Source of the DNA: Saccoglossus kowalevskii
Lineage: Eukaryota; Hemichordata; Enteropneusta; Harrimaniidae
Length of the DNA stretch: 30,186 nucleotides
Direction: 5' to 3'
Assembly (NCBI RefSeq): GCF_000003605.2
Contig: NW_003131875.1
Span: 16,261-46,446 of the forward strand
Shown: positions 2,523-25,980 of the stretch, in pieces
Position numbering within the stretch: the stretch's first letter is position 1
How the letters are laid out: each line of letters starts with the position of its first letter
The notes under the pieces: generated by a model
What the model was told of the DNA's origin: nothing
Seen by the model: the letters and a program-made list of their open reading frames with translations, nothing else
The model's database searches: none
Translations under genes and position numbers: made by a program

Positions 2523-3902
2523 ATGTCGATCCGACGTGGAGGAGTTTGCGGAGTCAAGTCGAAAGCTTGCCGGAATTTATTCGGACCCGTTGACCACGAA
2601 GAGGTCGATGCGTATTTGAAGAAGGAACTGGGGAAAATACAGGAAGAACAGAACCAGAAGTGGAATTTTGATTTTGGTACAGACACTCCTCGTGATGGCA
2701 GTTTCGAGTGGGAGCCTGTCTATGACAACGTCCCACAATTTTACCAGGCGAGAATTCTAGTTTCACCGAGGTGTGTTAAAAGGACTAGTCACCCCGATAA
2801 TGTGACGGACACGAGACTCACTACTACAATTACAAACCACAGTAGTACGGCATGTGGACTCGGCGATCACATACGCCCAACACAGAGTGACCAAATCGAC
2901 GAGAATACGCCGTCCCAATCCGATCTCCAGAAACAGCCGGATAACTCATTTGCTACCCCTAAATCGCGTGGAACAAATAAATACAGTAAAAGGACAAGTG
3001 CAACAAGAAAAACAACAAAACTTACGAGGGCGAATCAAATACAGATTTCAGGTAAATACGATTTTCCATTCGTAGTATTTTATCATTCCCCAACCAAGTT
3101 ATCGTACTCGTAGTAATTCGGGGTCTTGCCCTCAGCGCGTCCAATTACAATGAACCTTTTGAGTTGTAATAAATTACTACTACAATATCGTAGATTTGCA
3201 ATGGTTTTCTGTTTATCGTACGGTTAAAACTTAACGCAGCGACCACGTAGATGCTTACCAGCACAAATTTGAATAGTAAACACTTATTTACTATTCTGGG
3301 CACTGACTTCACTACCGCTATTGTCTGGCCAGGGGCTTTTGTCGGCTATGTGTGCATGTCTTAACTTGTACCGGGGACTCCCCTGTTGGTCAAAGTGCCT
3401 GGACAAAAGAAAAAAAAGGTTCATACTTCCGATATCTACTCAGCCGTTTCTAATTTCTATATATATATATATAATGTGACTTCCGAATGAAACAAGTGGC
3501 GACATGCTCATATCGGAAAAGAAATATTCACCCTGCGTGTGATTCCGTTCTTTTGTTTTTGCCCCTAGAGCCATTTAGCCTATCAATGCGTCTGGACGAG
3601 TTTCGATGATATTATCCTCGCACGCAGCGACCGTCGTTCATTGTATTATAAATCTTTTCTCGATTAATCAAGAAATCAAATAGTTAGAATCTGAATTCAC
3701 ATCTTTCGTGATAACAAAGTAATTGTGTGGATTACTTAGATATATAACCGTTGTTTTATTTTGTTTTGTGACAGCAGACTGCTTTAGGCAGCGGAAATCA
3801 CCGAAGAGAAAGCTACAACTATGTGTGAATGATCAGACCGGTTCAGCCATCATGTCAGTTGAAAAACAGCCAAGGATGGTGGAAGAAACTGTGCAGTCAT
3901 AA
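2523..3902 (+). CDS. CDKN1: Cip/Kip cyclin-dependent kinase inhibitor (p21/p27/p57 family), two coding exons
   Basis: The product should bind cyclin-CDK complexes in the nucleus and block cell-cycle entry. CDS is join(2523-3051, 3778-3902), giving 217 residues, or 218 if the upstream acceptor is used. The N-terminal CDI domain is clear: cyclin-docking ACRNLFG at residues 15-21, then PVDHEE (22-27), KWNFDF (46-51), FEWEPV (61-66) and P-Q-F-Y (71-74). Tyr74 corresponds to the inhibitory Tyr88 of human p27, but the second tyrosine is Gln. A polar, Ser/Thr-rich linker follows. Exon 2 adds a degenerate PIP-like motif (Gln172, Ile175, Cys178, Phe179), a CDK-type SPKR site at 184-187, a basic KRKL at 186-189 that could serve as NLS and second RxL motif, and a p27-like SVEKQP at 203-208. 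The ATG has A at -3 and is the first ATG of the frame. Donor CAG/GTAAAT and a T-rich acceptor support the splice. If intron 1 is retained, the frame ends at 3113 (196 residues). The family is certain from the CDI domain; the gene is a general CDKN1 rather than one vertebrate paralog. Confidence 0.93.
3052..3777 (+). other. Intron 1 of the CDKN1-like gene (phase 1)
   Basis: The donor is GTAAAT directly after TTTCAG at 3046-3051. The acceptor follows the T-rich stretch 3750-3770. The last exon-1 base is the first base of codon 177, so the intron is phase 1. The intron holds a (TA)n run near 3458-3473 and nothing else recognisable. In-frame reading through the donor reaches a stop at 3111-3113. 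Confidence 0.85.
3771..3777 (+). promoter_or_regulatory. Tandem NAGNAG 3' splice acceptor (CAGCAG)
   Basis: The sequence A-CAG-CAG gives two AG acceptors three bases apart, ending at 3774 and 3777. The distal choice encodes ...Ser-Asp-Cys-Phe; the proximal choice inserts one alanine (...Ser-Ala-Asp-Cys-Phe). Only the distal form keeps the Q-x-x-I-x-x-C-F spacing of the PIP-like motif. Confidence 0.7.
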
Positions 3903-3910
3903 TGTTATAG

Positions 3911-6206
3911 GTAATTATACATTTTTCACTGATAAATTGTAGTTGTGTTAGATTTGCAGCAGTCTTTGTTCTGTTTTCACAGTGGGTGTTTCTCCCGAAT
4001 CTCTACTGTGTTTACACAGAATCCGCTTCATGTTGTTTTTTAAATCAGTTTTCCTATTAGTCGCTAAAATATTCACCAATTATTAGAAAAATAAAGACCT
4101 CGTAGGCAGTAATTGCGTGTTGTTAAAAAACGACGCGCACGTGCCGGGTACAGGGCCTTTTGTTCCAACCAATTTTAATAGTCATTTCAAATCAATTTAA
4201 TCTCATTTCCCAAGCCTTCTTTTGTTTTATCTCGACCTACGCTACAACAGATGGTACAGCTTCCAGTTGCTTAGCAACATACCAGTTACTATAAATTTGA
4301 ATACGATTGTTAAAAGTGGCGTATTGTTGTTTCGCCACCTGTTATGTCAGGCAATCTGTGCCCACGAAAGGGCACAGGTGTTTGGCTTTCACACCCACCC
4401 GCATATTACAACGAATTTGTAACACTCAGTTGAATATTCAGCAAATGAAATACAACTCCATGCGGCGTAATTAATGATCACGAACTTGACCAAGCGATTA
4501 TAAATTCACATCAAATATTCACCATTTATTTTGTTATCTTCCCTTGCCAATTTCTGGGGTTTCACTTCCTGCCAAATGTCAGTCAGCTCTTTTATGTTCT
4601 TCACTTCACTTTAGTGATTCCTTGCTGTAGTAAAAAGTAAAAAAAATCCCCTGGTAACAACCATATGTAACAATCAATAAACAGCCAAGCATTTTTACAA
4701 CCAAAACTGACATTCTGATTTTTAATTGCGTAAACTTTCTTTTATTCAGATATTTTACTACTCATCCATATGTGAACTAAGTGCTACTATACTTCTCAAA
4801 ACAGTGTAAAAATAATTAAAACTCGACTCTTTCCAAAAGCTATTCCTTATTTGTCAGTACTTCCACTATGCATATAGACCGTTAATTATACATAATTTAA
4901 TTAAAATTGGGTTTAATCAGACAACAATACATGCTTAATTATTTGTTTTCTTTCGAAATTAGCTCAATGCATTCAATTAAAATCTAGTGTATATTCAAAT
5001 TTAACAAATAAAATTTCCTTCATAAAGCAATGAATTTAAAATCAAGTAAATACCCTACAATGTCAGCTCTGAAACATTACATGCATTCTAAAGACAATGG
5101 TGGGAATAAATACTGAATATTTTTCCTACATTGACAATTTATATTGAATATTATGAATACCTAAATAGTCTGATTATGAAACTAACATTATTATACAGTA
5201 CTCAAAAGTTTCAAACTGAAACAATTTTGTGAAATATACAAATACCGGTAATATTCATGCGTTTTTGACAAGTGGTGTTTGTTAAGAGTTTATTTAAACT
5301 GTCTTCAACTGTTTTCCCATTGAGTCTCACTTCCAGGCCTTGAATACAGCTAACTTATCTTTTGAATGGACCCTGGGTTTTTTTTTTCACTGTTTAAGTA
5401 AACAACTTGCTCCCTTTCAGTAAACAAATTCCCAAATTGAACAATGAATAAAAACAAGTTGCAGAGCAGGTCAGAAGTAAAATGAATCCACAACTGTAGT
5501 TTTATAGGCTGCTCTCTTGTCTGACTTTAGTTCTTGTTAATGCAATAAACTAACACAAAGGATTACCAGGGAACTGAAACTGTTTGTTACAGTGTCGTTG
5601 GACCCCACCCATTGTGCAAGGCAGTAGTGGTGCAGAAAGTCCTAGAAAAAAGCTGAGAAAATGTGAATGCATGAAAAATGAAAACTGTGGGCCGAAAATA
5701 ATGTAGTAATATAGTATTGAGAGTTGCATTTAGAATTTTGACTTGATGACTTCCCAACATGTGACTTGCAGAAGTGCAAACATATTAGACTTTAAAATAA
5801 CAGACATTGAAAGCAATAAATAGAGGTGGGGGGGGGGGGTAATCCATAAACCAGTTATTAGTAACCAGTAATTAGGGATAGATAAGGGATATTAATAACT
5901 ATTTGTTAAACAATTCTTTCATATTCATATTTAAAATATCAATAATGGCTGCAAAGTAAAATGCAGCCATTTGAGACATAACAAAAATGTTTGCATTGTC
6001 TGTTTCAATCATGCCCATTGCCTGGCATGGCTACTCAACACTGTCACTTATCAGTCTGTTTTAATATTGTTTCCATAGCGATATATTCACATTCTGTTGG
6101 GCATACTGTTCCCTATTACTAGTGTATATTCTAGACCAGTAGGTTGCCAAGACGATAATGCACGTCAATACAATTCTAATGTTTCTGTCTCTTCTTCTGA
6201 TTTCAG
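3911..6206 (+). other. Probable 3'UTR intron of the CDKN1-like gene
   Basis: Eight bases after the TAA stop (3900-3902) is TAG/GTAATT, a fair donor. The strongest downstream acceptor is at 6206, after a long pyrimidine tract (TTTCTGTCTCTTCTTCTGATTTCAG region, 6182-6206) with a CTAAT branch-like word just upstream. Human CDKN1B, as I recall, also has a non-coding last exon joined just after the stop. A second acceptor-like site (CTCCCTTTCAG) ends near 5420, and an AATAAA at 4090-4095 with GT-rich DNA after it could end a short unspliced transcript. The interval is AT-rich; it contains a G13-like run at about 5826-5838 and an 8-bp hairpin at 4356-4377. I see no coding exon in it. Confidence 0.5.
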
Positions 6207-9825: not shown

Positions 9826-10205
9826 GTATGTGTTTACTATAATTAGACATAGTCTTTACCTTGCCGTTTATTCGGTGTTATTTGCTTACTTTTATAAAGA
9901 GATAGCTGACTTGTTTTTCGCCATTTTCACAAAGACAAACTCTTTGCTGTTATACTAGTACTAGTAACGGATCTTTGTTCAATTTGTATTGCGAACAACT
10001 TTGTTAATAGTTTGCTTATCTCAATGGATCAAGTCATGGATCAAGTATAATCACAGTGATAGATATATAGATACAGGGTGTATAGGATATAAAGTGCTGA
10101 ACAAATCGCTCCCACGTAAGATATATTAATATTATGATGTGATTGAATACGTAAAACATATTCAGCGTGATTATCATGGTAATTGAAAAATCAGAAAAAA
10201 ATTAG

Positions 10206-10277
10206 TTCCCTAGCCGGGAATCGAACCCGGGCCCTGTGGGTGAAAGCCACATATCCTAACCACTAGACCACTAGGGA
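10206..10277 (-). tRNA. tRNA-Glu (anticodon UUC)
   Basis: The minus strand reads a 72-nt tRNA starting TCCCTAG, which pairs perfectly with CTAGGGA before the discriminator A. The D-arm contains TGGTCTAGTGGTTAGGA (box A), and the anticodon loop CTTTCAC gives UUC. The T-arm has GGTTCGATTCC (box B) with a perfect CCGGG/CCCGG stem. CCA is not encoded, as expected in a eukaryote. An A7 run on the + strand (10195-10201) gives a T7 pol III terminator five bases past the 3' end. All parts are intact, so it should be functional. Confidence 0.97.
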
Positions 10278-17024: not shown

Positions 17025-17753
17025 TCAACCTTGTATCTACCAGGGGACAGTAGACTAGTTCATTGCATCCACCATGTGACTGGACAATATAATTATAGTA
17101 GAATGACCATTTCATCCACCATATGTCTGGACAACTACAGTAAACTGACTATTGAGTCTACCATAAGACTGGATAACTGTAGTAGACTAGCCCATTTCAT
17201 CCACCATGTGACTGGACAACTATAGTAAACTGACCATTGAATCTACCATGAAACTGGACAACTACAGTAGACTGACCATTGAATCCATCATAAGACTGGA
17301 CAACTACAGTAGACTGACCATTGGATCCATCATAAGACTGGACAACTATAGTAAACTGACTATTGAGTCTACCATAAGACTGGATAACTGTAGTAGACTA
17401 GCCCATTTCATCCACCATGTGACTGGACAACTATTGTAGACTGACCATTTCATCCACCATATGACTGGACAACTATAGTAAACTGACCATTTCATCCACC
17501 ATATGACTGGACAACTATAGTAAACTGACCATTTCATCCACCATATGACTGGACAACTATAATAAACGGACCACTGAATCCATCATAAGACCGGATAACT
17601 ATTGTAACAGTGGACTAGCCTATTTCATCCACCATATGACTGGACAACTATAGTAAACTGACCATTGGATCCAGCAGACTAGTTCATTCATATCGCTATA
17701 ATATACTGGTCCATTGCATCCAGTATATTACTCGATAACTGCAGTAAACTGGC
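17025..17753. repeat. 42-bp minisatellite, left part
   Basis: Tandem units of about 42 bp share ACTGGACAACTA, AGTAAACTGACCA and CATCCACCAT(A/G)TG. Units vary, and a block of about five units is repeated: 17151 onward matches 17362 onward at a spacing of 211 bp. Since 42 is divisible by three, long open frames with a 14-residue period arise on both strands; these are by-products, not genes. The array enters the assembly gap. Confidence 0.95.
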
Positions 17754-18650
17754 NNNNNNNNNNNNNNNNNNNNNNNNNNNNNNNNNNNNNNNNNNNNNNN
17801 NNNNNNNNNNNNNNNNNNNNNNNNNNNNNNNNNNNNNNNNNNNNNNNNNNNNNNNNNNNNNNNNNNNNNNNNNNNNNNNNNNNNNNNNNNNNNNNNNNNN
17901 NNNNNNNNNNNNNNNNNNNNNNNNNNNNNNNNNNNNNNNNNNNNNNNNNNNNNNNNNNNNNNNNNNNNNNNNNNNNNNNNNNNNNNNNNNNNNNNNNNNN
18001 NNNNNNNNNNNNNNNNNNNNNNNNNNNNNNNNNNNNNNNNNNNNNNNNNNNNNNNNNNNNNNNNNNNNNNNNNNNNNNNNNNNNNNNNNNNNNNNNNNNN
18101 NNNNNNNNNNNNNNNNNNNNNNNNNNNNNNNNNNNNNNNNNNNNNNNNNNNNNNNNNNNNNNNNNNNNNNNNNNNNNNNNNNNNNNNNNNNNNNNNNNNN
18201 NNNNNNNNNNNNNNNNNNNNNNNNNNNNNNNNNNNNNNNNNNNNNNNNNNNNNNNNNNNNNNNNNNNNNNNNNNNNNNNNNNNNNNNNNNNNNNNNNNNN
18301 NNNNNNNNNNNNNNNNNNNNNNNNNNNNNNNNNNNNNNNNNNNNNNNNNNNNNNNNNNNNNNNNNNNNNNNNNNNNNNNNNNNNNNNNNNNNNNNNNNNN
18401 NNNNNNNNNNNNNNNNNNNNNNNNNNNNNNNNNNNNNNNNNNNNNNNNNNNNNNNNNNNNNNNNNNNNNNNNNNNNNNNNNNNNNNNNNNNNNNNNNNNN
18501 NNNNNNNNNNNNNNNNNNNNNNNNNNNNNNNNNNNNNNNNNNNNNNNNNNNNNNNNNNNNNNNNNNNNNNNNNNNNNNNNNNNNNNNNNNNNNNNNNNNN
18601 NNNNNNNNNNNNNNNNNNNNNNNNNNNNNNNNNNNNNNNNNNNNNNNNNN
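17754..18650. other. Assembly gap (897 N)
   Basis: A run of N inside the minisatellite. The gap most likely marks collapsed or unassembled repeat units, and its true length may differ. The two long frames spanning it are artefacts of the Ns. Confidence 0.99.
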
Positions 18651-18880
18651 CGACGGGCTAATTTGATTCACCATGGGACTGGATAACTGCAGTAGACTGG
18701 CTAATTTGATTCACCATGGGACTGGATAACTGCAGTAGACTGGCTAATTTGATTCACCATGGGACTGGATAACTGCAGTAGACTGGCTAATTTGATTCAC
18801 CATGGGACTGAATAACTGCAGTAAAGTGGTTCATTTGATCTACCATGGGACAGGGTAGACTGGCCCACTACATCTACCAA
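18651..18880. repeat. 43-bp minisatellite, right part
   Basis: Four or five units of 43 bp (ATTTGATTCACCATGGGACT, then GGATAACTGCAGTAGACTGGCTA) are nearly identical to each other but differ from the 42-bp units left of the gap. The last unit decays into CACTACATCTACC. Confidence 0.93.
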
Positions 18881-25159: not shown

Positions 25160-25980
25160 ACCAGTAGGTTACGTTGGCATCCAACACGGTAACAACAACG
25201 TCACAATGTAGCCCAACTCTACCCAACAGAAACTTAAGATTTAACTGCAGCAACCATCCACCCAAAACAGCCTTAAAGGGTGGTAGTCGTCGCGCAACGC
25301 ATGCGTGAGATATATGGGTCTCATATAAACAAAGATGGCGACTTTGACTATTGCGTAGATCAACGAGTACAAACCGAGACGTTACCAAGCTTTAAGTAGA
25401 TATTTTTTAGGTGATTGGAAGAGATTGAAAGTCACCGGCGGTAATTAGTGCAACCCGCGCCCAGGTCAAACCTCATACTTGTGATTTCCATTAGAATAGC
25501 GCATTGGATTGTGGGAAATCAATGTTTATCAACACAAATGTCGCACATGTTCAGCGCGACCACTGTCGCCCTTTAATATATGACGGCAGCAACCACCGCG
25601 TTACGTTACAACTATGTGTCGTTATATCCCAACGCTACGATTTGACTGCAGCAACAACCAGGTTACTGCAGCAACCACCACGTTACATTGTCAGCCAACC
25701 AATCCCAACGTTACGATTTGACTGCAGCAACAACCAGGTTACTGCAGCAACCACCACATTACATTGCCAGCCAACCCATCCCAACGTTACGATTTGACTG
25801 CAGCAACAACCAGGTTACTGCAGCAACCACCACGTTACATTGTCAGCCAACCCATCCCAACGTTACGATTTGACTGCAGCAACCACCACATTACATTGCC
25901 AGCCAACCTAATCCATAGTTACGATTTGACTGCAGCAACCACCACGTTACATTGTCAGCCAACTCAATCCAACGTCACGA
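25160..25980. repeat. 56/76-bp tandem array, left part with diverged outer copies
   Basis: Units start at 25630, 25706, 25782, 25858, 25914 and 25970, so three are 76 bp and two are 56 bp. The 20-bp difference is an internal duplication (ACTGCAGCAACAACCAGGTT beside ACTGCAGCAACCACCACGTT). The core word is TTTGACTGCAGCAACCACCA. Diverged copies extend left to about 25160 (for example TTTAACTGCAGCAACCATCC near 25240). Overlapping plus-strand frames here are repeat translations. Confidence 0.93.

Follow-up and report, generated by a model that had tools for sequence, protein, structure and literature searches.

A two-exon gene that its sequence assigns to the Cip/Kip (CDKN1-type) CDK inhibitors lies on the plus strand of the window, the 30,186-nucleotide stretch of Saccoglossus kowalevskii DNA analysed here, and its first intron ends in two adjacent CAG acceptors that fall inside a PIP-like motif of the predicted inhibitor. 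Splicing to the downstream (distal) CAG would leave this motif in register, and splicing to the upstream (proximal) CAG would add one alanine to it. The gene, its reading frames, the motif, the position of the intron and the scores of the two acceptors are direct observations. The explanation that we favour, tentatively and with a little less than even confidence, is that both acceptors yield protein, the alanine form predominating, and that the ratio of the two forms is set mainly by site strength and not by dedicated regulation.

Coding exon 1 was located at 2523..3051 and coding exon 2 at 3778..3902 when read from the distal acceptor (start at 3775 if proximal), both on the plus strand, with the stop codon TAA at 3900-3902. 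The last base of exon 1 opens an Asp (distal) or Ala (proximal) codon. Exon 1 matched the Pfam CDI (cyclin/CDK-binding) domain PF02234 at residues 18-66 (2574..2720, plus strand) with E 2.3e-19 and 69.6 bits (cut-off 25), and 49/49 positions were covered; two further Pfam families were both under their cut-offs. The PDB sequence search with exon 1 gave 13 matches at E<=1, ten of which were Cip/Kip chains. CDK inhibitor 1B was the best match (5.6e-16), CDK inhibitor 1 was matched at 9.8e-13, and the remaining three of the 13 were hydroxylamine oxidoreductases at E about 0.3. The CDKN1 assignment made in the first-pass annotation is borne out by the CDI match and the CDK inhibitor 1B chain. The N-terminal cyclin-binding RxLF motif is present as CRNLF at residues 16-20, and its counterpart in the PDB alignment is CRNLFGPVDHEE of p27.

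The CDI profile search of the 572-Mb assembly, parts of which read N, returned the window gene as its single match, and the gene region matched only itself when a duplicate or allelic copy of the locus was sought in the assembly. The 10 kb upstream of the window read N, and the contig ends at the downstream window edge. The window contains 18 ORFs that reach 95 aa or more from stop to stop, six of them N-run artefacts, and no second gene was recognised among them by eye.

The 3' end of exon 1 reads GCG AAT CAA ATA CAG ATT TCA G and is followed by the donor GTAAAT. Intron 1 (3052..3777, plus strand) is a phase-1 intron of 723 or 726 bases, with the donor CAG/GTAAAT (GT at 3052-3053) and the 3' end TTTTGTGACAGCAG. 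Two in-frame AGs, three bases apart, stand at this end (3773-3774 and 3776-3777), forming the NAGNAG tandem acceptor CAGCAG at 3772..3777 (plus strand), which is preceded by A at 3771. The distal acceptor completes an Asp codon (G/AC) and the proximal acceptor an Ala codon (G/CA). The resulting products are 217 aa, containing RANQIQISDCFRQRKSPKRK, and 218 aa, with one extra Ala and containing QIQISADCFRQRK, and both frames stay open as far as the TAA. The end of exon 1 in Gln-Ile-Gln-Ile-Ser plus one base and the position of CAGCAG inside the PIP-like motif had been proposed from the letters, and both agree with the reading frame and the exon/intron structure determined here. A downstream acceptor AG at 3786-3787 was rejected, as the frame would shift, and a U12 or non-canonical intron was rejected as unneeded, as GT-AG fits.

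A tandem acceptor is by itself common, at about 5% by chance, and AG makes up 4.8% of the window dinucleotides. For comparison within the genome, 12 acceptors from three CCT genes (CCT3, n = 6; CCT1, n = 3; CCT6, n = 3) were read by hand. An AG three bases upstream was found in 0/12 of them, and one of the 12 was a NAGNAG of another kind, CAGGAG. The exon order of CCT3 (six acceptors) was checked against a PDB alignment, and the CCT1 and CCT6 boundaries (six acceptors) were set from the human sequence together with frame and GT-AG agreement. The window site resembles NAGNAG acceptors generally in its CAGCAG at the intron end and its in-frame difference of one residue, and differs from them in its location, within a short binding motif that belongs to an inhibitor of the cell cycle.

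The first half of the motif, Q172-I-Q-I-S176 plus the first base of the split codon, lies at 3036..3051 (plus strand), and the second half, (D)177-C178-F179 followed by R-Q-R182-K183 with basic residues at +3 and +4, lies at 3778..3797 (plus strand). Both exons are required for the motif, as had been stated. Use of the distal acceptor yields QIQISDCFRQRK (Q172-I-Q-I-S-D-C-F-R-Q-R-K), and use of the proximal acceptor yields Q-I-Q-I-S-A-D-C-F, with Ala between positions 5 and 6. The predicted disruption of the Q-x-x-I-x-x-x-F spacing by this alanine was confirmed, I4 being shifted by one residue from D6 and F8.

Measured against the canonical PIP box, Qxx[LMIV]xx followed by two aromatic residues, the distal form carries Q at position 1 and an aliphatic residue at position 4 (Q172 and I175), and at positions 7 and 8 has C178-F179 instead of the aromatics. 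PIP degrons are PIP boxes that additionally carry T5-D6 and a basic residue at +4 (also at +3 in human cells), through which CRL4-Cdt2 recognises a PCNA-bound substrate (PMC8871960). The window motif has S176-D177 at these positions, with Ser in place of Thr, and basic residues at +3 and +4 (R182 and K183). Neither the canonical box with its two aromatics nor the strict TD pattern was found in the distal or the proximal protein. On strict definitions the motif can be classed neither as a canonical PIP box nor as a canonical PIP degron, and it resembles both. The earlier description of it as PIP-like therefore holds, and the likeness to a PIP degron is closer than had been claimed (S-D at positions 5-6, basic +3 and +4), yet position 7 is Cys. 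One aromatic is missing in 43% of a curated PCNA-binding set of 77 motifs (PMC6881253).

The window protein itself was shuffled 20,000 times for the box patterns and 100,000 times for the extended patterns. Chance alone produced the loose box, Qxx[ILMV]xx plus a single aromatic, in 27% of the whole-protein shuffles and in 6% for the C-terminal third. The loose one-aromatic box with [ST]D at positions 5-6 and a basic residue at +4 was obtained in 0.061% of 100,000 shuffles, and with a basic residue at +3 as well in 0.007%; these extended patterns were picked after the sequence was seen and follow the published degron definition, relaxed to accept Ser for Thr and a single aromatic. PCNA binding and Cdt2 recognition of the motif are putative because position 7 is Cys and position 5 is Ser, and given these two residues the motif may be in decay. 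The proximal protein contains a second weak register, Q174-I-S-A-D-C-F-R (Q1, A4, F7), which has neither the D6 nor the +4 feature, and through it the alanine form might still bind PCNA. PDB searches gave no match at E<=10 for the 29-residue peptide that spans the spliced motif or for the 41 aa encoded by exon 2, each query probably being too short.

Following the motif, RQRKSPKRKLQL (3786-3833) comprises, by eye, a basic stretch, the CDK-type site SPKR and an RKL similar to a second cyclin-binding motif. The order of basic stretch, SPKR and RKL after the motif matches, again by eye, the order of PIP, NLS and Cy2 in p21.

The splitting of the motif by a phase-1 intron had been noted from the letters. 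The split itself was confirmed, but it is no peculiarity of this gene and is to be expected, because the introns of human CDKN1C (by codon and phase) and of p21 (by residue) sit at the same place. In human CDKN1C, c.820G>A gives Asp274Asn, and the acceptor variants are named c.821-2A>G, c.821-3C>G and c.821-9C>A (PMC12604900, PMC6713069); these c.820/c.821 names place the intron between the first and second bases of the Asp274 codon, in phase 1. The Ile-Ser-Asp-x-Phe core is common to human CDKN1C and the window protein, and aligns with CDKN1C Ile272, Asp274 and Phe276. Human CDKN1C (p57Kip2) is like the window gene in being a CDI-type inhibitor whose Asp codon for PIP position 6 is interrupted by a phase-1 intron, and the window protein differs from it in having Cys at position 7. 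Ser273 of human p57 lies within the same core, and PIP position 1 is Gly in p57 versus Gln in the window protein. No report of a tandem acceptor in human CDKN1C was met in the literature examined.

Similar positioning was also observed for p21. Human p21L, a product of intron retention, departs from normal p21 at aa 149, the normal peptide being QTSMTDFYHSK, and mouse Cdkn1a has a layout similar to that of human p21 (PMC13042413). In human CDKN1A (p21), the PIP box is interrupted at the same residue (aa 149), and the splicing outcome sets whether the PIP box is present. Residue 149 is the Asp of TD if the Q of this peptide is residue 144. The human case differs from the window in that p21L arises by intron retention and loses NLS and Cy2 as well, whereas the change in the window would be one residue. 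Splicing to the distal acceptor reproduces the layout of the human genes, and the resulting protein can be aligned with human p57 and p21 without introducing a gap. From the matching intron positions we infer a shared ancestral intron at the Asp codon, with an ancestry that probably extends beyond the two compared human genes.

Retention of intron 1 would keep the frame open for 20 codons, GKYDFPFVVFYHSPTKLSYS (3051-3113, stop at 3111-3113), and this frame parallels human and mouse p21L in providing an in-frame new C-terminus; its first residues would leave a loose Q-x-x-I-x-x-K-Y. Past the stop codon, a candidate donor ATAG/GTAATT was noted at 3911..3912 (plus strand), eight bases beyond the TAA and comparable to the c.951+2 intron of human CDKN1C, which would lie directly past the stop codon for a CDKN1C protein of 316 codons. 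This candidate may mark a 3'UTR intron like that of CDKN1C, for which no acceptor was located. The human intron is named in PMC12604900.

The proximal acceptor scored above the distal one with each set of weights: 8.7 versus 5.1 bits with generic weights, 11.4 versus 5.8 with the pooled matrix of the 12 same-genome acceptors, and 9.6 versus 0.3 with the positional matrix of the same 12, a matrix-dependent difference of 3.6-9.4 bits from matrices that are small (12 sites) or generic. On the pooled matrix the 12 sampled acceptors scored 7.5-15.0 and the distal site fell beneath all 12, the sampled sites being flattered relative to the window sites by a matrix built from themselves. Because the proximal acceptor scores higher, the prediction is that the alanine isoform predominates. 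In mammals, equal use needs a distal site about 1 bit stronger, i.e. the proximal site is preferred; a pyrimidine at -4 favours the distal site, and a purine at -4 shifted a reporter to the proximal one (PMC3250501). The base at -4 of the window tandem acceptor is A, a purine. A two-parameter form reconstructed from the values of Q, B and the 50% point printed in PMC3250501 gave 0.94-0.997 proximal use, on a score scale that differs and with a usage rule fitted on mammals, to which this animal does not belong.

The difference of 3.6 to 9.4 bits, the A at -4, the published preference for the proximal site (PMC3250501) and the Cys at PIP position 7 are all consistent with the upstream CAG being the working acceptor, in which case nearly all protein would carry the alanine, the PIP motif would be a fading relic and the distal CAG would be mere exon sequence. 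We consider such exclusive proximal use rather unlikely. Q1, I4, S5, D6, F8 and the basic residues at +3 and +4 are all retained, which is improbable by chance if the motif has long been out of register. Sites of the CAGCAG type frequently use both acceptors, which also counts against it. The same direction is indicated by TassDB2, where 18.1% of 12,542 human NAGNAG (Delta-3) acceptors are confirmed as alternative (PMC2878309).

Features of the intron end point towards the distal site. Only one yUnAy branch match was found within 3701-3775; its branch A, at 3758, stands 16 bases ahead of the proximal AG, and the pyrimidine tract contains no run of five, the longest run by eye being TTTT. A short branch distance and a short pyrimidine tract are associated with distal use (PMC3250501), and the short branch distance and broken tract found here therefore favour the distal acceptor. 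Together with the gap-free alignment to human p57 and p21 and the retained degron features, this branch context argues for a gene in which the human layout is kept, local factors or the position of the branch point cause the first CAG to be skipped, and the PIP-bearing inhibitor is made. That the distal site alone is used is nonetheless doubtful, given its score beneath all 12 sampled same-genome acceptors on the pooled matrix and the purine at -4. The first-pass annotation had taken the distal product as the base state and the proximal one as the switch, a view that calls for correction: the proximal site scores stronger and the motif-broken form may well dominate, and it is the intact-motif isoform that needs explaining.

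In the favoured explanation, with both proteins made, an ordinary Cip/Kip gene would carry a C-terminal PCNA-binding and PIP-degron-like motif whose Asp codon is interrupted by an intron common to its human relatives, and this intron would now end in two CAGs. The distal product is expected to bind PCNA, where CRL4-Cdt2 could target it for destruction in S phase. In the proximal product, the register would be broken and I4 separated from D6 and F8, and the alanine protein is expected to have poor PCNA binding and greater stability. Site strength would lead mostly to proximal use. The distal form is probably still used and selected, because the motif is kept and its decay would be expected if it were hardly ever made in register. 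In this chain, the use of both acceptors, PCNA binding and degradation are steps that we infer. PCNA was also sought by Pfam in the assembly, parts of which read N: PF02747 gave no match at E<=0.001 (5 candidates scored), and PF00705 gave two matches at E<=10, neither above its cut-off, which exon splitting or the stretches of N may explain.

The p57 variants Ile272Ser, Asp274Asn and Phe276Val each lost PCNA binding and remained fairly stable in cycloheximide, a treatment under which wild-type p57 was degraded (PMC3787065), indicating that damage to one residue of the motif can stabilise the inhibitor. Such single-residue changes in the CDKN1C motif occur in patients with a growth-restriction syndrome, and the authors hold that the gain of function does not result directly from the lost PCNA binding, and doubt such a direct origin for the disease phenotype (PMC3787065). 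Damage to the motif need not strengthen the inhibitor, because the CDKN1C acceptor variants c.821-2, -3 and -9 are listed with Beckwith-Wiedemann overgrowth as loss of function (PMC12604900), and p21L, which has the PIP box among its lost parts, inhibits proliferation less than normal p21 (PMC13042413). Another CDKN1C variant, c.787+4A>T, named on another transcript, was reported with growth restriction and without RNA evidence (PMC12604900); it would lie at the donor of the same intron if the transcripts differ by 33 bases.

A regulated choice, in which tissue or S-phase status shifts the ratio and splicing sets the PCNA coupling and S-phase destruction of the inhibitor, can be given only a very small probability, as regulation goes with similar site strengths (PMC3250501) and the scores here clearly differ. 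It would be in line with the share of strongly regulated sites among alternatively spliced mammalian NAGNAGs, which is at least 12% and at most 37% (PMC3250501), and with the effect of an SF3B1 block, which alters the C-terminus of p21 and reportedly that of p27, the latter with increased stability (PMC13042413). We also regard as improbable that the three-base choice acts as a stability switch of the only CDKN1-type inhibitor found, with a distal form coupled to PCNA and degradable in S phase and a proximal form blind to PCNA and to the degron reader. Such a switch would need only that the isoform ratio matters for stability and, if real, the ratio would set the firmness of arrest during replication or regeneration.

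In the library searched, literature searches for NAGNAG together with the PIP box and for the exon/intron structure of CDKN1A found nothing. From the search on NAGNAG and CDKN1, the accessible part of PMC4512258 mentions NAGNAG only as a read-mapping remark, and the accessible parts of PMC522874, PMC3973624, PMC8080560 and PMC3095350 hold nothing on an intron at this position. The nearest published relatives found were p21L, formed by intron retention (PMC13042413), and the CDKN1C missense variants (PMC3787065). A natural one-residue splice choice, in an animal in which a single CDI gene was found, would provide a clean test of NAGNAG control of protein stability, and the shared intron position means that the same question can be asked in other animals with a CDKN1-type gene.

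Elsewhere in the window, a tRNA-Glu (TTC) gene was found at 10205-10277 on the minus strand (65.6 bits), the only Rfam match at the gathering threshold in the window. By eye, minisatellite-like repeats around TTTGACTGCAGCAACAACCAGGTTACTGCAGCAACCACCACGTTACATTG were seen at 25580-25980, and diverged tandem repeats of about 50-60 bases, CCATATGACTGGACAACTATAGTAAACTGACC, flank an N run at 17040-18850. On the mitochondrial contig C4830 of the same assembly, COX1 is without AGR codons and seems to read ATA as Ile, AAA as Lys and TGA as Trp, and ND1 lies on the opposite strand. These codon assignments were judged against known COX1 and ND1 sequences, and would make up an unusual code set for an animal.
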